Shown here: positions 10,198 to 27,685 of the stretch, in pieces
How positions within the stretch are numbered: position 1 is the first letter of the stretch
Layout of the letters: every line of letters begins with the position of its first letter
Origin: Saccoglossus kowalevskii
Lineage: Eukaryota > Hemichordata > Enteropneusta > Harrimaniidae
Reading direction: 5' to 3'
Length of the DNA: 30,817 nucleotides
Assembly: GCF_000003605.2 (NCBI RefSeq)
Contig: NW_003112492.1
Location: 1 to 30,817 of the forward strand
Position numbers and translations under genes: made by a program
Notes under the pieces: generated by a model
Told to the model about the DNA's origin: nothing
Seen by the model: the letters and a program-made list of their open reading frames with translations, nothing else
The model's database searches: none

Positions 10198-10385
10198 ATG
10201 TCTCGCCATCTTGGAGACGAAGAATCGTCTCTTGAATACCTTTTTCTGGGATTCTGCAACAATTTGCGACTCGGTCAGTGGGAGTTGGCTCGAGCTCAGT
10301 TGAGAGGTTTGCATAAACACCACGGAAATCAAAATGTCACAGAAAATATTCTTGCAACCGTTACAGACTGTCCTTATGAATTTAG
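10198..10385 (+). CDS. ZFYVE26: ZFYVE26 exon 1 (coding part)
   Basis: It encodes residues 1-62 plus two bases of codon 63 and ends at the donor gtaagt (10386). It contains the conserved Leu-rich GFCNNLRLGQWELARAQL stretch. The frame would hit a stop immediately inside the intron, which confirms the donor. Confidence 0.9.
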
Positions 10386-13300
10386 GTAAGTGTAATCTAC
10401 TTCATTTATTGATGAGATCTATTTCATGGTGTATGATTATACATGATGATGCTATGCTCGCCATTCGTGCTATGATTGAGCCATCATGTCAACAATTATT
10501 TACCGTATTTATATATATGACTGGCAGCCTATAGAAAAGTGTCATATTTTGACCTCCTACTTTCTAAATTTAGCCATCAAGTCCATGCAGAACGAAAACC
10601 CTGCAGTGCAGAACAGTTGGAAAGAGTTTCTTAATGACCCCATACCCCTAACCTGAATCCTAACCTTAACAATCCAGCCTCCAATGTAATTCAATATGCC
10701 CCTCGAATTAACTATATATAGAGATGAAGATATACAGATGTATTGGTTTGATGATCCGATTAAAAATGGCGAAATGGTAACACATGGCCATTTTTGTGCT
10801 AAAAAATCATCGAAAATTAAGCTTTTCTGGCATTCCAGAACCAGATCTTGGTTGTTTATAGATGGATTTCGTTCAAACTTGGTACATACATTACACATTA
10901 TTGTTCCTTGACGCACGTTTTTCAAATCAAAATTGCTGACTGGCATGCTTTGACTGTTTATGTTTTATTTTTGTTTTATATATTCATTATACATCATACA
11001 TGTATCATAGATACATTGTATATCAGATGTATTCAAAATGGCTGATCACTAGCCATTTTGTTTTAACTACCAGTAACGCTGTTTCAGAACATTATCTCAA
11101 TATGGACAAGTACTTGTTTGATGATTAGATACAAGATGACTGAATGTCAATCATTTTAATGTTAAAAAATCATCATAATCAAGCATCAGCTTCTGGATCC
11201 ATATCACTGACATGTTTATGTTCCAAATATATTACCATAAACACAGTTCGTCCACAAATGTGGAGGGACTGTGCTTTAATCAAAACTATATATCTTAAAT
11301 TTGATAACTAACAGTGACTATGCCAGGCATGGTACTGGAGGGTCAGGTTTAGGATTAGAGTTATGGGTGAGGTGGCCCTAAGGAACTTGCAGAACAGTTA
11401 GCCATCATTATCAAGAGGGCAGTGTTGAATGATGTCATTTTGTTATGAAAATAAACGAGCTCTTCAAATGTTGTGGTGGGTAATATGAAAGCTAAATACA
11501 AAAAATGTCAGTGGTTAGTTATTTGATCACAGAGTAGTTCAAAGCTTGTACAGTGTATAAAGTAAGATTACGACTCTTCACTTTGGAACTGAATACCTAA
11601 ATATGAATCTACTTGTCTCTGAATACTCCTTAAAATCATCCAATGTGAAGCTGAAACAATCCAACACTTAAATGCATGGTAAATCATAATGTGAATATAA
11701 ATTTGTTTCTCTTATATTTGTTTACAGTTATGGTTCAGAAAGCATCCCTCTACCCAGTAATTTGTCTTGGCTGTGTTTACAGGAATATAATCAGATTTAT
11801 GAATCTGAGGTAAAGTATGATAATATGAAGTTACTGCAAACAAAGTACAATCATGTACAGTATCAATTGCTATTCTGTACCGTGACTGTGTACTGCTGAG
11901 TGACTATTTTTTCTGTGTCTGCTAGATAACATTATTATGTATTTATATTTACTGACCACTTGGTATATGGAGCTGGCATAGTTGTGATAAATAAAGGTTT
12001 TTAATTCTTTTAGTAGTGTATCCGTGTTTGAAATTTACATTTCCTAATGAGGTAAGATGCTGGGACCCAATACATGTAGCTAAAATAGTGCAATCACTTC
12101 TAATAGAGGATCTATGGTACTGTGAAATACTTTATTTTCGCTTGCAATTTTGTTTTCACTCAAGGTATGATTCAGAGAAAATAAAATCCAGCGAATATAC
12201 CTTATTTCCTATATTATACATTCAACTTATCAAAAATCAGTGAAAATAAATTCCATATACAACACCCAAAAATTCTTTCAACAAAAATTAATTCCAGCTA
12301 AAAGTATTTTACAGTTAGTATTACACCCTGCTTGCCTCCTGGTCAAAACTTGTTATACAGTTAAATCAGTTTTGGGAATAGTTCATGGAAAAGTAGTGGG
12401 TTTTCCACTTATGTATTCTTATAGATGGTACTTTGGTGAATTTGTATTATAGTTCTATTACATGTATCTGAATAGCAGAAACAGTAGGTAAGTTAATTTT
12501 TACATTATACATGTATATAACAGGAAATCTGAACTGCTGTTTTCATTGTTTTTCTGATTTTAGGAGGAACATACAAGAACTATTTGTCGCGATACAGAAT
12601 TTAAACTTCTCCTCTTTACAGCATGTTCTTACCAGGAAAATGTGTCCACTTTTCCTATAAAGGTAATATTAATCTTGTGATATCCTTGGTGTCTAGATAT
12701 TTGCACTCCACACATGTAATTGAAAAAAATATATAATGAAGTTAGAAACCCACATGTACATGTTTTTGCTATTTTGCAAAAAAATATGATGCATGAAGTG
12801 CTAACCTGTAAAGGCATTCAGCCTCGATTTGTTAGGTTCATTGATTTATGTGGTATTCATGGTACAAAGATGATCTATACATATATGAGTTGACAATGTA
12901 CACCATTAAAAATATATGCTTTTAAATTACATGTAGTAATTGGTGGAGATGACCTAATGCCAATTAAACTTGTATTTCTCATATTTTTCTCCTCCAGCTA
13001 TCCACAAGCAAGATTGACCTTGAATAGATACATGTCTGGTAGTAACCATATGTCTCATTTATTGTAGGTACTCTACAACTACCACAATCATATTCTTACT
13101 ACACGCGAAAAAGGGCAGACATTCTGTGATTCAATCCCGTCATTATGTACAGATTCTCTAACATTTCTAGCAACAATTCTGAACACTGATCCAGTTCTAG
13201 CACATTTGATAATAGAATATTTAAGTGTGAAATTTAATTTAGAATATTTAGAAAATAACCAAAGGCTTCAACAAATTTATATAGAGAGTATACAGAATGA

Positions 13301-13706
13301 TCTGAAGGTTCTGAAATGTGTGGGTGACAAAAACAAGCTGGACATGACAGTCAAACATCTCCGCCATATGCTGTCATTCTTAGATCCAACATGGGACATG
13401 ATAGATCTTGCACTGTGTGATCTATTCTGTGAACTGTTGTCATTTGCTGAGAAGAATCCATCCGTCCTATGTCATAGTGATATATACTCCAGTCTACTTG
13501 GTAGAAACACCATCTATTTACTTCAACAATTTACACTTGCTGAGAAGAAATTGAGATTTGATTTGGAAGCATGTAACTGTGATGCGCTTGACAATGACAC
13601 TAGAGTATGGCTACACATTTCATGTCTGAAAGACAAGAAGAAAGCATGGATGGATTTGTTTTTCAGGTGTTTGCAAACTGATAGGCATTTACTGGAGACG
13701 ATTGTG
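10198..13706 (+). CDS. ZFYVE26: ZFYVE26 (spastizin), 5' part only: exons 1-4
   Basis: Four exons join in frame (10198-10385, 11728-11809, 12564-12662, 13068-13706) to give the first 336 residues. In vertebrates this protein is a ~2,500-residue scaffold that binds PI3P through a C-terminal FYVE finger, partners spatacsin, and acts in autophagic lysosome reformation and cytokinesis. Identity rests on collinear similarity to the vertebrate N-terminus: a GFCxxLRxGxWELA motif (residues 18-31), an ILxxVTDCP block near the end of exon 1, a segment around SNLSWLCLQEY, and an AW..LFFRCLQTDRHLLE block near residue 320. This N-terminal region is alpha-helical and has no named catalytic motif. The start at 10198 has a purine at -3 and matches the family start. 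The FYVE domain and the remaining ~2,200 residues are not here: the coding sequence stops at a good donor (gtgagt, 13707) and no further exon appears before the assembly gap at 15026. The gene is cut by the assembly, not obviously mutated: no stops or frameshifts were seen. Confidence 0.9.
10569..10915. repeat. dispersed repeat, copy 1 (intron 1 of ZFYVE26)
   Basis: The core at about 10722-10880 (gatatacagatgtattgg, tttgatgatccgatt, gcattccagaacc, gatcttggttgtt) recurs at 13880-14012 and, more diverged, at about 11095-11215. A flanking part at 10610-10680, with a cctaacctgaatcctaacc block, is related in inverse orientation to 11330-11395. Open frames on both strands across it are repeat-derived. 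No transposase or reverse transcriptase motif is visible, so it is probably a non-autonomous element of unknown class. Confidence 0.6.
11041..11410. repeat. dispersed repeat, copy 2, strongly diverged
   Basis: It shares tagccattttgttttaa with the copy at 13791-13807, and gtttgatgat plus (t)taaaaaatcatc..aat.aagc..ttctgg with the copy at 10.75-10.83 kb. The end at 11330-11395 is an inverse relative of 10610-10680. Much more decayed than the other two copies. Confidence 0.4.
11728..11809 (+). CDS. ZFYVE26: ZFYVE26 exon 2
   Basis: Acceptor tttgtttacag ends at 11727 and donor gtaaag starts at 11810. It completes codon 63 and encodes residues 64-90, including SNLSWLCLQEYNQIYESE, which aligns with the family just after the exon 1 block. 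It ends in phase 0. Confidence 0.85.
11810..12563 (+). other. ZFYVE26 intron 2
   Basis: About 750 bases of AT-rich intron. Short open frames at 12016-12452 have no conserved sequence and lack matching splice phases. No repeat seen. Confidence 0.6.
12564..12662 (+). CDS. ZFYVE26: ZFYVE26 exon 3
   Basis: Exactly 33 codons between acceptor ctgattttag and donor gtaata, phase 0 on both sides. It encodes residues 91-123, including FKLLLFTACSYQENV, matching the helical segment that follows exon 2 in vertebrate spastizin. Confidence 0.85.
12663..13067 (+). other. ZFYVE26 intron 3
   Basis: About 400 bases, AT-rich, ending in ttattgtag. No other feature seen. Confidence 0.7.
13068..13706 (+). CDS. 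ZFYVE26: ZFYVE26 exon 4, large exon
   Basis: It has 213 codons, phase 0 at both ends, with acceptor ttattgtag and donor gtgagt. It encodes residues 124-336, a helical segment ending in AWMDLFFRCLQTDRHLLETI, which matches the family around human residue ~330. No stop interrupts it. Reading past the donor gives a stop at 13743, so the gene must splice onward to an exon that is not in the window. Confidence 0.9.
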
Positions 13707-13790
13707 GTGAGTTTATTAATTGCTTATTTTTTTAGTTCCCGTTAGAGAAATAGGGACTTATGGATTGAACTCTGTGTGTGTCCAACTGGT

Positions 13791-14016
13791 AGCCATTTTG
13801 TTTTAATGAATGTGGTTCTTCAGACATATCTCTATCAGGTTATGACTGATTAAGTAATATTATTAATATATCATGTCATAGATATACAGCTGTATTGGTT
13901 TGACGATCCGATTTAAAAAAAGCGGAATGGTGGCTATGTTTGTGTTAAAATTCATTAAAATTAAGCATTTCTTGCATTCCGGAACCTGATCTTGGTTGTT
14001 CATGAATGGATTTTGT
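13791..14016. repeat. dispersed repeat, copy 3, truncated by a nested element
   Basis: Gatatacagctgtattggtt, gacgatccgatt, gcattccggaacc and gatcttggttgttcatgaatgg match copy 1 at 10733-10870 in the same order. Similarity stops at ggattttgtt (14016), exactly where the element at 14017 begins, while copy 1 continues at that point. This indicates insertion of the younger element into this copy. Confidence 0.6.
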
Positions 14017-15017
14017 TAGCTCCGCTGTCGACTTTGTCGAGCGGAGCTTATCATATGAGTGATTGTCCGTCGTCGTCGTCGTTGTCGTCGTTCGTGTCAA
14101 TGTTTTACTTTTTCGACTTCTTCTTGAAAACTACAAGCCTAAATGCTTTGATACTTGGTGTATATGTACCTTGGGTAGACCACTCTTAGGTTTGTTCATT
14201 TCATGTTGATATCTTTAATTCTCTAATTTTGGTGAATATTTTTGTCATTTTTGGTAAAAACTGATATTTTCGACTTCTTGTTAAAAACCGCAAGTGCAAT
14301 TGCTTTGATATTACATATATAGGTACTACATGTGGCCTCTCTCAGTTTTGTTCATTTCGTGATGATATCTTTAATTCTCTAATTTTCTGAATATTTTTGT
14401 CATTTTTGGTAAAAACTGATATTTTCGACTTCTTGTTAAAAACCGCAAGTGCAATTGCTTTGATATTACATATATAGGTACTACATGTGGACCTCTCTCA
14501 GATTTGTTCATTTTGTAATGATATCTTTAATTCTCTAATTTTGGTGAATATTTTTGTAATTTTTGGTAAAAAGTGATATTTTCGACTTCTTGTTAAAAAC
14601 CAATAGTTCAATTGCTTTGATATTACATATATAGATACTACATGTAGACCTTTCTCAGATTTGTTCATTTTGTGATGATATCTTCAGTTCTCTAATTTTG
14701 GTGAATATTTTTGTCATTGTTGGTAAAAAGTGATATTTTCGACTTCTTGTTGAAAACTGTAAGTCCGATTGCTTTGATATTACATATATAGGTACTACAT
14801 GTGGACCTCCCTCAGATTTGTTCGTTTTGTGATGATATCTTCAATTCTCTAATTAATTTATTTTGGTGAATATTTTTGTAATTTTTTGGTAAAAAGTGAT
14901 ATTTTCGACTTCTTGTTAAAAACTAAGTCCGATTGCTTTGATACTATTCATATTGTTCATTTTCTAATGATGTCTTCAGTTCTTTAATTGAAATGTGCAT
15001 TGCTAACAGCGGAGCTA
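14017..15017. mobile_element. Helentron-associated / pearl-like element with tandem core
   Basis: The ends carry a 12-base perfect inverted repeat, tagctccgctgt at 14017-14028 and its complement at 15006-15017. The left end folds into an imperfect hairpin (14018-14048) and is followed by a (GTC)n-like microsatellite (14065-14095). The interior is a tandem array of a ~157-bp unit. Short subterminal inverted repeats, a microsatellite and a 150-170-bp tandem core are the known plan of non-autonomous Helentron relatives (HINEs, the pearl family of bivalves). There is no coding capacity. It ends eight bases before the assembly gap. Confidence 0.7.
14100..14955. repeat. tandem array, ~157 bp unit, about 5.5 copies
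   Basis: The anchor cgacttctt recurs at 14114, 14271, 14426, 14583, 14740 and 14906 (spacings 157, 155, 157, 157, 166). Each unit contains tgctttgata, usually followed by ttacatatatagg, then ttgttcattt, gatgatatct and aattttggtgaatattttt. The middle units are most alike and the outer ones most diverged, as in arrays that grow internally. It forms the core of the surrounding mobile element. Confidence 0.9.
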
Positions 15018-15025
15018 TCTCAGCC

Positions 15026-15075
15026 NNNNNNNNNNNNNNNNNNNNNNNNNNNNNNNNNNNNNNNNNNNNNNNNNN
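15026..15075. other. 50-N assembly gap
   Basis: A run of exactly 50 N, a conventional placeholder size. ZFYVE26 stops before it and ABCF1 starts after it, and both are incomplete on the gap side. Confidence 0.99.
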
Positions 15076-15213
15076 GATAGGCTGCTTGTTTATATTTGTT
15101 ATGTTCACTGGTTTTCTTTAGTTATAGATGCCTTTACATGTATATGTTTTACTGATTCACACCATGTACTTTTTACTATATACAGACTTCATTTGAATTA
15201 TTTATTTTTGCAG

Positions 15214-15385
15214 GAAAAGAAAACGAAAGAAGCACTAACGAGAAAACAAGAGAAAGGAAGAAAAAAAGGTCATGAAAATGAGGAAACAGCACCTGTAGAA
15301 TTATTGAAAAGGCCACGGGAGTACACTGTCAAGTTTACGTTTCCCAACCCGCCGTCGTTGAACCCACCAATACTGGGATTACATT
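15214..15385 (+). CDS. ABCF1: ABCF1 exon: charged linker and pre-NBD2 block
   Basis: Acceptor atttttgcag ends at 15213 and donor gtgagt starts at 15386. It encodes residues 1-57 of the visible part plus one base. It opens in phase 0 with a charged [19 protein letters not shown] stretch, then [20 protein letters not shown], nearly identical to vertebrate ABCF1. The upstream exon must lie in or beyond the gap. Confidence 0.92.
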
Positions 15386-18300
15386 GTGAGTTCTGTAAAG
15401 TATACAAATATTGTGTGCTGCTTCACAATTTAAAATACACTTTGCCTCGCACTGTTAAAATTTCACATCTCTACTACAAGTAAAACACATTTATTAACAA
15501 CAAAGGTAAATATTAGGGGTGGGTTATAGTGGGCCAGTGTTGAATGATTTTTCACAATTTCCTGTTTTAAAAGTGACGTAATTATTGATTTTGACAGTTG
15601 CCACCATAAGTACTAAGTGTTTGTAATGAAATGAAATTTTGAGATATGGTGTGAACTTTTTACCATAGGAACCAATAGTAAGGTCCAAAAATCACAATTT
15701 TCGTAATTGTTTGACCTGCATTTTGTGCAAAAATGAGTTTGCTTACCATACATTTCAGTGAACAGCATAAAATAAAACCATAGTGTAAATGTCAAGAAAA
15801 TCTAGCATTGTTTTAGTGGCTGCCAACTACCTTAATTTTGAAACTATTTTCAGTCTCTTTTTTTTTTCTGATGTTAATTTTTCAGCTTGTACCTTCGGTT
15901 ATCCTGGACAGAAAGAACTTTTTAAAGATATAGATTTTGGAATTGATTTGTCCTCCAGAAGTGAGTATTCTCTTTGTCTCAGCAAATGTGCTTTGCAAGT
16001 CAACTTTTGTAACCAAGCCATGAATGTAAAGTTGGACCATTTCATTGGTTACCCACTCTCTGCTAGTACCTGAATGGCTGCTGGAATTGTGTTCACCTCC
16101 ACAGTCTGTGAGTAACCATGATGTTGATTGGCTGACAGTATGCTGCTAATCTGCATATGCTAATTTTTCTGAAAATGGATGACAGTTCTGTTTTTCCTCT
16201 TGCACACTTCATCAACTGATAGCTGCCACAGCAAAAAAAGAGCTCCATGCATCACTCTATCCTTTATGACGTTATGATAAATTTACATGTGCAAAATTTT
16301 ACTAATTTGTTAATGGAAAACTAGTTGTTAATTTTCCATTTGGTCCAAAAATAACAAATTTTACACCAAAATGTTGTGGAAAAAATGGTGGTTTCCAACA
16401 AAATCCCATAATGAATTGACCTTTAATTAAAATGAGTTTGACATTCTTGTTTTAGTGGCTATCTGTGAATGTTTGACTGTATTATCTGTTATTTGACTCA
16501 TGATGGGCCTTAAAGAAAGTCTGTGTTGAATACGTTTTATTTGCAGTTGCTATTGTTGGACCGAATGGTGTTGGGAAGTCAACTTTTCTGAAACTTTTGA
16601 CAGGTGACCTTGTGCCGGTAAGTTGATTTCATAGCAGTTCTTTATGACTGAAATGATTTGCCTAATAATGCCTGAAAGGAGACTGGTATAAGTGTATATA
16701 ACTTTTAAAGTAGAACATAATGATGGGTAGATATTTTTGCCAGGCATGTGATTTTTAATGACAATTACGATCATAAGGTCTATAAATTGCCTGGCCTTAA
16801 ATACATCTAAGCAGTTATTCTGTGAAAACAAAAAAATTGAAAAACCCTTGGTATTATCGTTTCCAAAGGCATCCCCACGAACACAATTATGGTGTCAATT
16901 ATTGCCACCTAGAAGCTACAAACGGGCAGGAAAAAAAAGTTTCTTTTATTATTTCCATGTTGTGTTGTCATATCCAAATGGTTATATAGGATAGCTAATT
17001 TGTTAAAATGCAGACAATTTAAGAACACTACAAATTCTTGATCTAAATGAAAACAAGCAAATAAGAAAAAGGGCATATGCAAACTTGTTTCCATGGAAAC
17101 TGATTTTCTGCTCTATAGTCCTACTTCTTAAAGCGAGGGAGTCGTCACCTGCACATGCTATAGCGTGTTGTTTACAAACAAGCAACTACCCATGAGCCTT
17201 TGCGCTTTAGTGTGCGTTGTTATCGTTGCATGGGATATCGTTGTCTACCCAATGAGCCTTTGTGTTTTTAGTGTGCGTTGTTATCGTTGCTTGGGACTCA
17301 ATCCCGCGTATGTGTAGGTGACGACACCTCCGCTTCAAGTTGGTCAAAATGCAGGTGAACTCGCGTTCATAATTCAAAAACTGATTTGGTTATTTCAAGT
17401 TTTTTCTTCAAACTTTCAAATATCCAGTTACAAAGACTCACTTCCTGTCCTGGTGACCTTGTTTAATTTCTGAGTTAGTGTGCCTATGCTAATAAACAAT
17501 ATTCGTCTGACTTTGTCTATGTTATAGTTAATGTATTAGTTAGGTATGTATGAAAAAAAGCAATTTAATTCATGTGTGATTTGATTTCAGCTGCAAGGAG
17601 AAAGACGTAAAAATCACCGTCTTCGTATCGGTATGTATAGTCAACATTCAGCGGATCAGTTAGATTTAGAAGAATCGTCCGTCGAGTATTTACAGGTATG
17701 TTTGCAATGTATATCATGTAGAGGTGTGGCTCAATTCGTGCCTATCTCTGTTATTTTTACCATTCGCACAGACTTGAACAAAATTTGCCTAACTTTCTAA
17801 CATACAAAGGTTAACAAATCTTGCCTAACTATGCTATATTTGCTGCACTGGTGTGCTTGCCACATGATCAAGTCTTTCATAAATTCCACATAAAGTCCAT
17901 ATTGTATGTATACTCCCACTTCACTTTCTTGATATTGGCAAACCCAGTTTTACTCGTCATATTTCACTTTCTATCTACAGAGGCTATTTAATTTAAATTA
18001 TCAAGATGCTAGGAAGACATTGGGAAGATTTGGTTTAGTCAGCTACGCTCATACAATCCGAATTAAAGATCTATCAGGGGGACAGAAATCCAGAGTTGCG
18101 TTTGCTGATCTGTCCTGTCGAGAACCAGACGTCTTGATCATGGTAAGCTGTAATGGCTTAAGAAAGTGTCATAGCTGGACAGAATAAATGTATGTAATGT
18201 TTGCTGTGTATATATGCGTCTCTGGGTCATTATTTAACATAGCATACATCTATTTCTCTGAGGAATTTTAAGTTACCCAAGAAAAATCAAGCCCATTTCT

Positions 18301-19786
18301 CGATGTGTAGGAATGGTTCAGGTGCAGTTGATAGCATAATTCTATATAACCCCATGTGACCACCTTTTGACCAATCATGGCACAGAATTTGGAAATGATG
18401 TGTTATAGTATTGACCTTCACTTCAATAACTTTATTTATTAGGTGCCTCTGATTGAATTTATCTTCAAGAGCAGTAGTTGTTGCAGTGCATCCTGTTTGA
18501 TATTAGTTTCCATAGCAACGTATATTTGTCTACACGAAATATAAACGTAGGCTACATGACAATGATCACTGTTCAAGCTTACCCATCCATCCACTCTTGT
18601 TTGTCTGTCTCAAATGTATAAGTGTACATAACGATATTTTTTCATGCAATGGCTTTATTTATCTAATCTCTGTAGGATGAACCGACAAATAACCTAGATA
18701 TAGAATCAATTGATGCCTTGGCTGATGCTATGAATCATTTTGAAGGAGGTAAGTACAGTGATTAACATATGCAAATCATCAGAATCATAGTGTATCAACC
18801 TTGCTTATTTTGTTACTCTAATTCAATAAAAGTATGCCCTCTATGGCGAAAATGACAACTTGAGGTACGGTATTGAGGTCACAGTTGTAAGCACTTCAAC
18901 TTTTTTTTATTTATTTCAATCAAATAAAAGTATGCCCTCTATGGCGAAAATGACAACTTGGGGTTTTGAGGTCACTGTTGTAAGCACATCAACTTTGTTT
19001 ATTTGTTATTTCAATCGAATAAAAGTATGCCCTCTATGGCAAAAATCTTCAGGTTTTTTAGGCCACTGATGTAAGTAATGCAATTTCCCCTTGAGATGAA
19101 AAATAATAATAAACGTAACCAAACAACTGCACCACACAGACATGAATTCTTTTTGATGTCATTGACTTTCCATTCCATGAAGGATTTTAGATCCATATTA
19201 CGTAGTTGTTGTTATTTCATATACGCAGTGACGAATGCTGTATTATTACTATTATCCTCGGGGACGGACATCCAGGCATTTTCACCGCCTGGCAACCCTC
19301 AGGGTGAAAACAAATACCAAAAGCTCGCAAAAAAACGGTACTTTGGGATGGTTGTTGAGAGTCCCCTGAACAGTGTAACAAGATTAGCCCTACGTGTGTA
19401 ACATATATGAATTTGGTGGTTCAGGATTACTTCAAAGTTGAGTTTGTATTGTTTTCTTGAATTTTCACCTGCTCAACCGGCGTTCCACAGTGCGTGTCTT
19501 AGCAATGTGGAACGTTTTATGACGTAGCTCCACCCCGAGGATATTGGTTTAGTTCAGATGTAACACTCTCAAAGTATGTAACATTGTGCACTGTTTTATT
19601 TCTTTTTCAGGTGTTATCATAGTGAGTCACGATGCTCGTTTGATTTTGGAAACTGACTGTCAGCTTTGGGTCGTAGAAGACCAGACCATTAATGAAGTAG
19701 ATGGGGATTTTGATGACTATAAACGTGAAGTATTAGAACAGTTAGGAGAGCAAATAGCTGAAGCCACAAAACCTTTCAGTAAATAA
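15214..19786 (+). CDS. ABCF1: ABCF1, 3' part: linker and second nucleotide-binding domain
   Basis: Seven exons join in frame to 277 residues: 15214-15385, 15886-15960, 16547-16617, 17591-17695, 17981-18142, 18676-18748 and 19611-19786. ABCF1 is a cytosolic ABC-F ATPase without membrane segments; in vertebrates it binds eIF2 and ribosomes and promotes translation initiation. Visible motifs are a Lys/Glu-rich linker (1-35), the [16 protein letters not shown] block that introduces NBD2, Walker [10 protein letters not shown] (87-95), signature LSGGQ (172-176), Walker B LIM-DEPTNN (193-201), and the H-loop in VSHDAR (224-229). The ending [18 protein letters not shown] is characteristic of ABCF1 over ABCF2/3. 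All catalytic residues are intact. The stop codon lies inside an AATAAA (19782-19787); another AATAAA is at 20259. Missing upstream are NBD1 and the N-terminal eIF2-binding region, about two thirds of the protein, lost at the gap at 15026. Confidence 0.95.
15386..15885 (+). other. ABCF1 intron
   Basis: About 500 bases, ending in a pyrimidine-rich tract and ttttcag. A short phrase, cagtgttgaatgat (15535-15548), is shared with the ZFYVE26 intron near 11420. Nothing else is seen. Confidence 0.6.
15886..15960 (+). CDS. ABCF1: ABCF1 exon: start of NBD2
   Basis: It completes Ser58 and encodes [20 protein letters not shown] and the following LSSR (59-82), the first beta strands of NBD2 with the aromatic A-loop position in FGYPG. 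Donor gtgagt. It ends one base into codon 83. Confidence 0.92.
16547..16617 (+). CDS. ABCF1: ABCF1 exon: Walker A
   Basis: It encodes [20 protein letters not shown] and LVP (84-106) with a complete Walker A P-loop (Lys93, Ser94). Acceptor tttgcag and donor gtaagt are strong. Confidence 0.95.
16618..17590 (+). other. ABCF1 intron carrying a foldback element
   Basis: About 970 bases. Apart from the foldback element at 17127-17339, no feature is seen; the open frames on both strands lack conservation. Confidence 0.6.
17127..17339. mobile_element. small foldback/MITE-like element with internal duplication
   Basis: The ends 17127-17156 and 17310-17339 are inverted repeats matching at 25 of 30 positions, sharing gtcgtcacct and cacat. 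Between them lie two direct copies of a ~60-bp unit starting near 17189 and 17248, each with atgagcctttg and gtgtgcgttgttatcgttgc. No clear target duplication was seen, so the exact boundaries are uncertain. No coding capacity. Confidence 0.55.
17591..17695 (+). CDS. ABCF1: ABCF1 exon: NBD2 Q-loop region
   Basis: Exactly 35 codons, phase 0. It encodes residues 107-141 with [20 protein letters not shown]; the Gln in MYSQH is the Q-loop glutamine that contacts Mg/ATP in ABC proteins. Confidence 0.92.
17981..18142 (+). CDS. ABCF1: ABCF1 exon: ABC signature
   Basis: Exactly 54 codons (142-195) with [20 protein letters not shown] and VLIM, i.e. the signature motif and the hydrophobic half of Walker B. 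The intron splits Walker B between Met195 and Asp196. Where vertebrates have VLILDEP, this protein has VLIMDEP. Confidence 0.95.
18143..18675 (+). other. ABCF1 intron
   Basis: About 530 bases of intron. No repeat, exon or RNA gene is apparent. Confidence 0.6.
18676..18748 (+). CDS. ABCF1: ABCF1 exon: Walker B and D-loop
   Basis: It encodes [20 protein letters not shown] and HFEG (196-219) plus one base, with the catalytic Glu197 and the D-loop NNLD. Acceptor ctctgtag; donor gtaagt. Confidence 0.95.
18825..19075. repeat. tandem repeat, ~96 bp unit, about 2.6 copies
   Basis: The phrase aataaaagtatgccctctat recurs at 18825, 18923 and 19018, followed by ggc(g/a)aaaat and, in full units, by ttgaggtcac(a/t)gttgtaagcac. 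The copies are close to identical in the conserved blocks, so the duplication is relatively recent. It lies in the last ABCF1 intron and accounts for the open frame at 18860-19069. Confidence 0.85.
19253..19543. mobile_element. MITE, copy A, in the last ABCF1 intron
   Basis: A perfect 11-base inverted repeat, tatcctcgggg at 19253-19263 and its complement at 19533-19543, bounds a 291-bp segment. A diverged relative in the same orientation lies at about 21510-21798, sharing cggtac, ggttgttgag, ctcctgaaca and gttgagtttgt, and cacctgctc followed by ttccacag/tttcacag. It has no coding capacity. The superfamily is not determinable; a TA or short AT target duplication cannot be told apart from the flanking AT sequence. 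Confidence 0.6.
19611..19786 (+). CDS. ABCF1: ABCF1 terminal exon: H-loop and C-terminus
   Basis: Acceptor ttctttttcag. It encodes the second part of Gly220 and residues 221-277: VIIVSHDAR (H-loop His226), [20 protein letters not shown] and [20 protein letters not shown]. The stop is TAA. The last ~10 residues differ from vertebrates, as expected for a free C-terminus. Confidence 0.95.
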
Positions 19787-24844: not shown

Positions 24845-25861
24845 TTAATTAATGTCACTATTGTCAACAATGATCTTGATGTACGCCACGTCGTCTTTGA
24901 CGTATGCATGTCGTGGACTATGAATTTGTGCAAGAGGCATAAACAAAGGACACCCACTTGCGATATTCATATCTTGGCTGGGTCGTTTAAATGAGTTTGA
25001 TGTTGGGTCAGGTCTGAACGCATCGATCACGTGCTCTCGGTGATTTTGATCTATCCACATTAGCGTGACCTTCTGCCGAAATGGCCATCTTAAAAGTCCG
25101 TCAAAAGTTCCTCTCATAATTACAAAGAACAGAGAAACGTGGTTACCCTTTCCCATGCCATCCCCATTAAGGTAAATACGAGCGCACATCTTGTAACCAT
25201 GGCGACTAGTAAAGAAGCAAGGGGAGTATATCGAGAGGGTTCTCTGAGAAACTGCATCGCATTGTTTTTGTGCAGAATCTGTTATTTTCCACACTAAAAC
25301 TCCATCGTAAGACGTCATCTCTAAAGATTGAATTCTTAAATCTTGTTCCGCAAGTGCTACATCTTTCATTGCAATAATTCTATCTTGTGATTTGATCTTT
25401 CGCTCTAACGCGTCTGATCGTTCTCTTTCTCTTTTCAAACTCATTTCTACTTCTTTCAGTTTTTCAGCTTCATTTTCAACTTCGTTACTCAAAACACCTA
25501 CAATACCTTCGTATGTCGTGACCTTACTGTGTAAAAGTTTTGTCTTGTTGCCCATGTCTTCGATTTTCTTGCCTTGCTCTTGGATGAGTCCTGTCACTAG
25601 AAGCCCATTTGGATGCTCAGCCGTTCTCTCTGACTCTGTCAAGCGTTTCTTTACCTGAGTTTCCAGATCATGTACGGTGGTCGTCAAACTCTCAATTCCT
25701 TGTTGCTGCTTTTCGACCGTTTTTTTAATGCTCATAACGCTACCGAATTTGCCGTTAACGTCCTGTACCATGGCTAGAAATGGTATCAGGTAGTGAAACA
25801 ACAGTTGTAGATGCTGGACAGTGTATTCGTGATGGTGTTCTTTTAATTTCCCAATCTCCAT
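24845..25861 (-). CDS. TRAF2: TRAF2-like terminal exon: coiled coil and MATH domain
   Basis: It encodes 338 residues after acceptor ttcttttacag (25862-25872 complement). The first ~35 residues finish the zinc-finger region (HHHEYTVQHLQLL). A long Glu/Lys/Leu-rich coiled coil follows, then TSYDGVLVWKITD opening the MATH domain. Its first codon is ATG by chance; it is an internal exon, not the start. Confidence 0.95.
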   Translation of the reverse strand: MEIGKLKEHHHEYTVQHLQLLFHYLIPFLAMVQDVNGKFGSVMSIKKTVEKQQQGIESLTTTVHDLETQVKKRLTESERTAEHPNGLLVTGLIQEQGKKIEDMGNKTKLLHSKVTTYEGIVGVLSNEVENEAEKLKEVEMSLKRERERSDALERKIKSQDRIIAMKDVALAEQDLRIQSLEMTSYDGVLVWKITDSAQKQCDAVSQRTLSIYSPCFFTSRHGYKMCARIYLNGDGMGKGNHVSLFFVIMRGTFDGLLRWPFRQKVTLMWIDQNHREHVIDAFRPDPTSNSFKRPSQDMNIASGCPLFMPLAQIHSPRHAYVKDDVAYIKIIVDNSDIN

Positions 25862-27685
25862 CTGTAAAAGAAATGTTACATTGTCAATGGCTAGTCAACT
25901 TAGCTAGGGATGATATAGAACCCCAAAAAACTATAATATAAGTCTGTTTTCACCAAGTGATTTATTGTGTAATGCAGACCTTATTCTTACCTTTCTTTCG
26001 CATCCAACTTTCTCGAACTCACATGGAACTATTTTCTTGCTACAGTCTCCATTATTTGCATCAAGGTGCAATTTAAGCTGTAATTAATAAAACGAAGCGT
26101 ATATTTAGTGATTGCTCATTTCATTTTACAGTAGGATGATTCTATTTAGAAAATACTAAATTATGCAAAGCAACTATACCTCTCCTCGTGGTATGTTCTG
26201 CTTATGACAATTTGGGCATTCCGATGGCACTTTGTCACATTCTTTAGTATGCATCTGAAATGATTAAATATGATTACAAATTAAACATATAGTAAAACTA
26301 AATATTTATCAACTTACATTTTAAAACAAAATATTAACATAATATCAGATAATCATTCAACATTTTCTATGACAATCACTATGCAAATATGATGGTTCGA
26401 ATGTCATCAATAGGCATCACATATTATTGCTGCGTCAAGGGATATATTTAAATTACCTTAATTTCCTTATATGGAAGTTGAACATCACAGTAATCACACT
26501 GTATGACTCTCATGTCACACTCTGTACGTAAATGATGTGCAAGAGCATCTCTTCTGACTTGTGCCTCACATCCATACTTTATACAATGTATCACCTGGGC
26601 GGGACACTCATCAACATGAGTCTGTACAAATGATAATGATCATATATGTCATTCATGAATATGGTTGTCATAAACTTGATGAATTGCTGGAGGTGTTTAT
26701 GACGATTTTATGTATGAGCACTTACTGTAAACCATTATATCTAGGCGACCTCTGGTATCCGATGTAGTATAAATATATGAATACGACCCAGAGGCAAATT
26801 TTGATACACGGCTGTACAACCTGTGGTCACAAAAGTACATGGGAAATACTACTGAATGTCAACGCACTACCAGCTAATTTCAATGACACTTTAAGACTAC
26901 CCCAGACCATTCGTCCCGGTGTTATCTTTAAGACACGTCTATTTTTAAATACTCCATGATTGAACTGTTTTATAACATTCAAATAAACATTATTGTTGGT
27001 GTAACTGTCTGGTCATTTCTGGGTTACTCATTTTCATACTTTTCGAAAACTATCGATGTTGCTTATATATCGCATTTTTCTAGAATCGAATAATGAGGAG
27101 TCTTACCTCGTCGTAATCTTTGAATATCCCAGTCCAATTACATCCTTCATTTTGACAACGAACTTCATATTTACTCAATTCTCGTTGTATAGCTTTATCT
27201 TGATAGCACTGTCGAATATAAATCAGGGTTATTATAGATGAGTATAGAGATGACACAAATGTGGGTTTTAACATCGACCACAGTGAGGTGGTTAATGTTC
27301 TAAATCAATGAAATCGACATTTACATTTCGCGATTAGACCAACCTGTTCCAATGCTTAGCTACACACTCGATACGTAAATGCGACAAAACTTCAGTAAAG
27401 ATGAACATTTAATAACAATAGAAGTATACGGTACATTTTGCCATGGTGTAGTATTATACTACGTGGATCCACGTTTTATTTTCTGTTGTTACAATATTTC
27501 AGTGGTGAATATAAACATTGTGACGCCCCGATAGAATGAACATTATTTTCATGGTCGTTCATTATTCACCACTGGTCTATATGAAACTGGTTTTACTCAT
27601 AATACATCATGTACGTACCTCCTCTGTACTTAGAACAGAATGACTTCCTTCTTCCTTGCATGCATTACAAATTGGTGGTGTGTGC
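24845..27685 (-). CDS. TRAF2: TRAF2-like TNF receptor-associated factor, lacking first RING exon(s)
   Basis: Six minus-strand exons join in frame to 503 codons: 27685-27619, 27208-27107, 26621-26457, 26254-26180, 26077-25991 and 25861-24845. TRAF2 is a trimeric cytosolic adaptor and E3 scaffold linking TNF-receptor-family tails to NF-kB and JNK signalling. Order of domains: the C-terminal zinc pair of a RING (PPICNACKEEG), about five Cys/His TRAF zinc-finger modules over exons 2-5, a coiled coil (about residues 38-182 of the last exon), then a MATH/TRAF-C domain (185-336) with YKMCARIYLNGDG and DDVAYIKIIVD. TRAF2-specific likeness includes NHREHVIDAFRPD and the KDVALAEQDL...SLE stretch before TRAF-C; some positions recall TRAF3, so it may be a pre-duplication TRAF2/3-type gene. 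No disabling mutations. The N-terminal RING half is not found up to the window end, so the gene begins beyond 30817 or behind a >3.1-kb first intron. Confidence 0.92.
25991..26077 (-). CDS. TRAF2: TRAF2-like exon: last zinc-finger module
   Basis: Exactly 29 codons, phase 0, between tattaattacag and gtaaga. Contains HLDANNGDC and PCEFEKVGC, a TRAF-type zinc-finger pattern running on into HHH of the last exon. Confidence 0.93.
26180..26254 (-). CDS. TRAF2: TRAF2-like exon: zinc finger
   Basis: Exactly 25 codons, phase 0 (MHTKECDKVPSECPNCHKQN and IPRGE). Cys/His ligands continue the finger begun in the preceding exon and start the next. The IPRGE block is also found in vertebrate TRAF2-type proteins (IPRE). 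Confidence 0.93.
26457..26621 (-). CDS. TRAF2: TRAF2-like exon: two zinc fingers
   Basis: Exactly 55 codons, phase 0, between tttgtacag and gtaatt. Reads THVDECPAQVIHCIKYGCEA, then HHLRTEC and QCDYCDVQLPYKEI, regularly spaced Cys and His as in TRAF-type zinc fingers. Plus-strand open frames here are shadows. Confidence 0.93.
26622..27106 (-). other. TRAF2-like intron
   Basis: About 485 bases. A 60-codon plus-strand open frame at 26777-26959 contains a Cys-x2-Cys pair but no recognisable family and no splice context; I treat it as chance. Confidence 0.6.
27107..27208 (-). CDS. TRAF2: TRAF2-like exon: first zinc finger after RING
   Basis: Exactly 34 codons, phase 0 (CYQDKAIQRELSKYEVRCQN and EGCNWTGIFKDYDE). 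D-x-A-x(2)-RE followed by C-x4-C and W-x-G is the classical junction from RING to the first TRAF zinc finger. Confidence 0.95.
27209..27618 (-). other. TRAF2-like intron with palindromes
   Basis: About 410 bases. It holds two adjacent palindromes (gtagtattatactac at about 27448-27462 and cgtggatccacg at 27462-27473) and an 11-base inverted repeat cagtggtgaat/attcaccactg (27500-27510 and 27564-27574) with a nested aatgaac/gttcatt pair. The latter could be a tiny foldback element; no target duplication seen. Confidence 0.5.
27619..27685 (-). CDS. TRAF2: TRAF2-like exon: end of RING finger
   Basis: Acceptor ccaacag and donor gtacgt on the minus strand. It starts one base before a codon boundary, then reads HTPPICNACKEEGSHSVLST and EE. 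The C-x2-C is the last zinc-ligand pair of a TRAF RING, so the rest of the RING must be in an upstream exon ending in phase 1. Confidence 0.85.

Follow-up and report, generated by a model that had tools for sequence, protein, structure and literature searches.

Mis-joins induced by repeats are well known in draft assemblies: when copies of the same dispersed repeat form the ends of two contigs, these can be placed next to each other with a short N spacer, and a gene acquires a false neighbour. Among mobile elements, the closest described relatives of the repeat discussed here are the bivalve Cg_HINE and pearl elements, non-autonomous Helentrons with central tandem repeats of ~160 bp (PMC7492417, PMC4067079). 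According to PMC7492417, the HINE elements of the Pacific oyster carry subterminal inverted repeats (subTIRs), an inverted complement, a microsatellite and tandem units. For HINE and DINE-1 elements, PMC4067079 reports a preference for TT or T-rich targets and a palindrome close to the 3' end. Here we analysed a window of 30,817 bases from Saccoglossus kowalevskii (bases 1-30,817 of scaffold C662, which has 201,126 bases; searched assembly, 572 Mb in 4,830 contigs), in which the 5' end of ZFYVE26 and the 3' half of ABCF1 stand on either side of an N run. The ZFYVE26-ABCF1 neighbourhood very probably results from a scaffolding error at a HINE, a dispersed repeat, and is most likely not a real feature. 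The locus is of the same kind as the general case; here, the false neighbour would be in frame, and it is exactly within the repeat's 3' palindrome that the two contigs meet. A preliminary description of this DNA had already considered a mis-join likely, a view now supported by later ZFYVE26 exons found elsewhere, by a split HINE and by flanks that do not match.

Two truncated genes facing one gap

The only N run of the window occupies 15026-15075 and is exactly 50 bases long, as the preliminary description had reported. To its left, on the plus strand, lie ZFYVE26 exons 1-4 (10198-10385, 11728-11809, 12564-12662 and 13068-13706), with AG acceptors at exons 2-4 and GT donors. The spliced model (1008 nt) reproduces the 336 codons given before, exon 4 closing in phase 0 at 13706 with the donor GTGAGT. 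The 336-residue product aligned weakly but over its whole length, N-terminus included, to residues 5-338 of ZFYVE26 in 8yad_C (E 6.8e-7; chain of 2539 aa), and no other PDB sequence reached E<=0.001. The piece thus falls short of the full protein by about 2,200 residues, in agreement with the earlier estimate. Exon 4 matched the assembly once, namely the window itself, hence no second ZFYVE26 5' end is seen there.

To the right of the gap, also on the plus strand, seven ABCF1 exons (15214-15385, 15886-15960, 16547-16617, 17591-17695, 17981-18142, 18676-18748 and 19611-19786) splice through to the stop codon without an internal stop. The piece opens in phase 0 at 15214, within the linker between the two nucleotide-binding domains (NBD1 and NBD2), and its first 195 residues correspond to residues 273-467 of ABCF1 in 5zxd_A (E 5e-92; the next-best PDB chain, ARB1, reached only 1.2e-44). 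The piece thus holds the ABCF1-specific linker and the second NBD. Since the match starts at residue 273, NBD1 and the N-terminus are missing from it, which bears out the earlier reading of the 15214 exon as the middle of ABCF1. The ABCF1 introns additionally contain a dispersed repeat at 15603-15838, with at least 42 further assembly matches (68-97% identical), and a tandem repeat of 95-98 bp in about 2.5 copies at 18794-19046. Pfam searches were run on 10 stretches of the window, and the four taken from ZFYVE26 and ABCF1 gave nothing above cut-off; an Rfam scan gave 0 matches at gathering score.

Both exon edges facing the gap are in phase 0, so that, as foreseen in the preliminary description, a false in-frame fusion is predictable. 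The two genes were not found on one uninterrupted stretch: the N run separates them, and the flanks of the element at the gap do not match. A literature search on a ZFYVE26-ABCF1 fusion returned nothing relevant, judged by title. A second allele or a duplicate of either gene piece was also considered, and none was seen in the assembly search.

A HINE element divided by the gap

Both gap edges belong to one kind of mobile element, a point that the preliminary description had missed; its statement that the contigs end in or near repeats can therefore be sharpened, as both end inside copies of one HINE family. On the left, a HINE of ~1 kb, complete except for its last ~14 bases, extends over 14017-15025 (plus strand) and was recognized by its subTIRs, its tandem units and a palindrome arm. 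Its 5' subTIR (14017-14028) pairs with the 3' subTIR (15006-15017) over 12 nt with 100% complementarity. Between them lie an inverted complement at 14040-14048, a GTC-rich microsatellite read by eye around 14066-14090 and, at 14178-14943, 4.8 satellite-like tandem units of 157 bp. The left arm of the 3' palindrome, CAGCC, follows at 15021-15025, and across the gap 15076-15090 supply the loop GATA, the right arm GGCTG and the terminus CTTGT with a flanking T. The 5' subTIR, the inverted complement, the microsatellite, the tandem units of ~160 bp, the 3' subTIR, the 3' palindrome and a TT at the left junction are all shared with Cg_HINE and pearl as PMC7492417 and PMC4067079 present them, a likeness of architecture judged by description.

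Intact copies of the element place the gap precisely. At C662:108112-107357 (minus strand) and at L001:57-746, CTCAGC(C/T) is directly followed by GACAGGCTGCTTGTT, with 0 bases between the positions that correspond to the gap edges; in the window, CTCAGCC stops at 15025 and GATAGGCTGCTTGTT starts at 15076. When up to 2 mismatches were allowed, 564,524 bases (counting both strands) contained the 15-mer GACAGGCTGCTTGTT three times, once at the gap edge and once at each of the two HINE 3' ends. The continuity of the intact copies, together with these occurrences, places the gap inside a HINE, where the left arm of the palindrome gives way to the loop. The palindrome reads CAGCC-GACA-GGCTG in the C662 copy and is imperfect in the L001 copy (CAGCT-GACA-GGCTG).

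These same observations could suggest that sequencing simply stopped at a hairpin, the two contigs truly abutting within one insertion with about 0 bases missing. Indeed, a hairpin of -8.1 kcal/mol is predicted both for the joined window edges and for the C662 copy at its 3' end, whereas the L001 copy, in which one base of an arm differs, is predicted to fold otherwise, at -5.6 kcal/mol (RNA parameters in each case). If this were correct, the sequence interrupted by the element on its left should resume on its right. That left sequence is a repeat, which we call R: its left part occupies 13880-14016 (plus strand), in the intron that follows exon 4 of ZFYVE26, and is broken at TT by the HINE. 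A second R copy in the window, starting at 10728, spans the insertion point. The continuation TTCAAA(C/T)TT(G/T)GTACATA was found in 4/4 other places seen to cover the site: the window at 10.87 kb, L008 and two places in L019, where the two L019 places share only a block of ~32 bases with R, and L008 is without about 30 bases just upstream. Against these four continuations, the sequence right of the HINE gave local scores of 26, 22, 21 and 19, which were matched by 22, 52, 41 and 84 of 200 shuffles, respectively; for comparison, scores of 57, 39 and 44 were obtained when the remaining three continuations were set against the first, that of the window. On the left, the junction is consistent with the empty site of R (GT/TCAAAC, the slash marking the junction), and the right junction belongs elsewhere. 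The right flank itself, 15091-15213 (plus strand), is part of an ABCF1 intron, has a single match in the assembly search and holds no continuation of R.

Because R is not taken up again on the right side of the gap, the two HINE halves are not one insertion. They thus come from different places, or intervening material was lost. A true gap of ~0 bases was rejected on this flank test and, with later ZFYVE26 exons lying elsewhere as well (see below), a stop at the hairpin has next to no probability.

A hybrid HINE with mismatching flanks would also be left if the animal that was sequenced carried a genuine deletion, in which two HINE copies recombined, lost the 3' part of ZFYVE26 and the 5' part of ABCF1 between them and created an expressed, in-frame ZFYVE26-ABCF1 chimera, as the phase 0 of both exon edges would permit. 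Such an event is highly improbable: the chimera would be without NBD1 of ABCF1 and about 2,200 residues of ZFYVE26, the later ZFYVE26 exons persist on scaffolds other than that of ABCF1, the assembly searches gave no second copy of either piece, and the presence of an N run means that the assembler had no continuous sequence across this point.

Later ZFYVE26 exons and the missing half of ABCF1

The assembly was searched with segments of human ZFYVE26 that had been checked against 8yad_C, and matches were kept at E<=10. With query residues 2234-2448, all four matches fell on the minus strand of C4732 in collinear order (E 1.5e-6 to 0.0115), one of them running over a stop at its edge. With residues 1896-2246, all five matches were collinear on C1701 (24659-24874 and 25206-25370, plus strand) and C4732 (180443-180610, 177618-177782 and 176874-177014, minus strand), at E 3.8e-12 to 0.253, two of them crossing stops. 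Over these nine matches the weakest E is thus 0.253 and three cross stops, as is possible past an exon edge. The FYVE query had its best match, among 13, at C1701:22939-23064, and the 42 residues of this exon found ZFYVE26 as the best of 13 PDB sequences (E 4.7e-12; EEA1, 2.5e-9). ZFYVE26 residues ~1829-2032 accordingly lie on C1701 (plus) and ~2036-2447 on C4732 (minus), in collinear order. In the 1896-2246 query, position 137 falls 88 bases from the end of C1701 (25,458) and position 141 falls 347 bases from the end of C4732 (180,957); the two scaffolds are probably adjacent and joinable end to end through ZFYVE26. In contrast, on bases 1-200,000 of C662, which include long N runs, neither the later ZFYVE26 segments nor NBD1 of ABCF1 gave a match better than E 0.18. 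The FYVE finger and the C-terminal region were thus not found on C662 together with the 5' exons, but on C1701 and C4732 instead. Judged from these alignments, the simplest reading would be a single ZFYVE26 gene spread over the left part of C662, C1701 and C4732.

C4732 reaches about 174 kb past the last ZFYVE26 match on the 3' side of the gene. On the reading of a single gene, with this much sequence beyond it, ABCF1 could not follow within tens of kilobases. The other suggestion of the preliminary description, a gap hiding tens of kilobases, is therefore disfavoured, and a gap of that size in the correct order was rejected in view of the exons on C1701 and C4732. The contigs could still be true neighbours in correct order with the gap wrongly sized, unplaced sequence between two direct HINE copies having collapsed into a 50-N placeholder. 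The same orientation of the HINE copies at the two gap edges fits this proposal, as does the failure to find NBD1 of ABCF1 in the searched assembly. However, C1701 and C4732 already contain later exons of ZFYVE26 in assembled form, with ~174 kb further 3' on C4732, and if these two scaffolds are right the gap would need about 200 kb or more; we regard this arrangement as very unlikely.

Several results weigh against a false join and have to be set beside the evidence for it. The preliminary description had pointed to other scaffolds for the missing exons of both genes, which proved correct for ZFYVE26 (residues ~1829-2447 on C1701 and C4732) and did not for ABCF1, for which no 5' match was found. 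NBD1 was searched for in the assembly with two queries (4 and 21 matches); the top five of the 21 matches lie on C2263 (68% and 44%) and C1169 (66%, 32% and 38%), whose sequences we take, from their motifs, to be ABCF3 and ABCF2. "Not found" refers here to the matches that were read; the other 16 of the 21 are weaker, at E 0.005 to 7.3. NBD1 may be unassembled. ZFYVE26 residues 339-1828 were not located either, a query of residues ~441-648 giving 0 assembly matches; this query is a weak one, since human residues 5-338 recovered only two of the four window exons, at 38% and 24% identity, and the middle region is probably too diverged to be detected. Finally, the right junction to be expected if the join were corrected, a HINE end leading into R, was found (<=3 mismatches) on C3492 and C1938 and not on C1701. 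A third match to this junction, on C3691, looks like R alone, and the reversed pattern gave 0 matches. C3492 has 82,535 bases, so its junction copy has a long flank of its own and is not obviously the missing partner.

The two places where R-like sequence comes directly after a HINE 3' end are C3492:5020-5046 and C1938:1397743-1397769, both on the minus strand. Their presence suggests that HINEs landed in R more than once.

Origin and consequences of the join

A false scaffold join would have arisen as follows. The left contig (window 1-15025), carrying ZFYVE26 exons 1-4, ends inside one HINE copy, and the right contig, from 15076, starts with the final 15 bases of such a copy and carries the ABCF1 3' half. 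The scaffolder would then have joined both with a 50-N spacer, presumably on account of the way in which their ends meet within the repeat. In the genome, ZFYVE26 would instead continue through C1701 in forward and then C4732 in reverse orientation, with C1701 probably placed after window position 15025. Any model with a splice from 13706 to 15214 would be an artefact.

Elsewhere on C662, a further N run of 540 bases (187154-187693) has similar TA-rich sequence and TTTTGCGACCA on either side, and is perhaps a second repeat-edge gap. The window also contains a TRAF-like gene on the minus strand (24845-27304), with a MATH domain within 24845-25894 and TRAF zinc-finger matches at 25931-26083 (below cut-off), 26448-26639 and 27080-27304.

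As a general check, wherever a short N run has both edges in the same transposon, the outer flanks can be compared with an empty site before the join is relied upon. In this assembly of S. kowalevskii, automated annotation could produce a spurious ZFYVE26-ABCF1 protein in one reading frame, and ZFYVE26 and ABCF1 would each count as fragmented.

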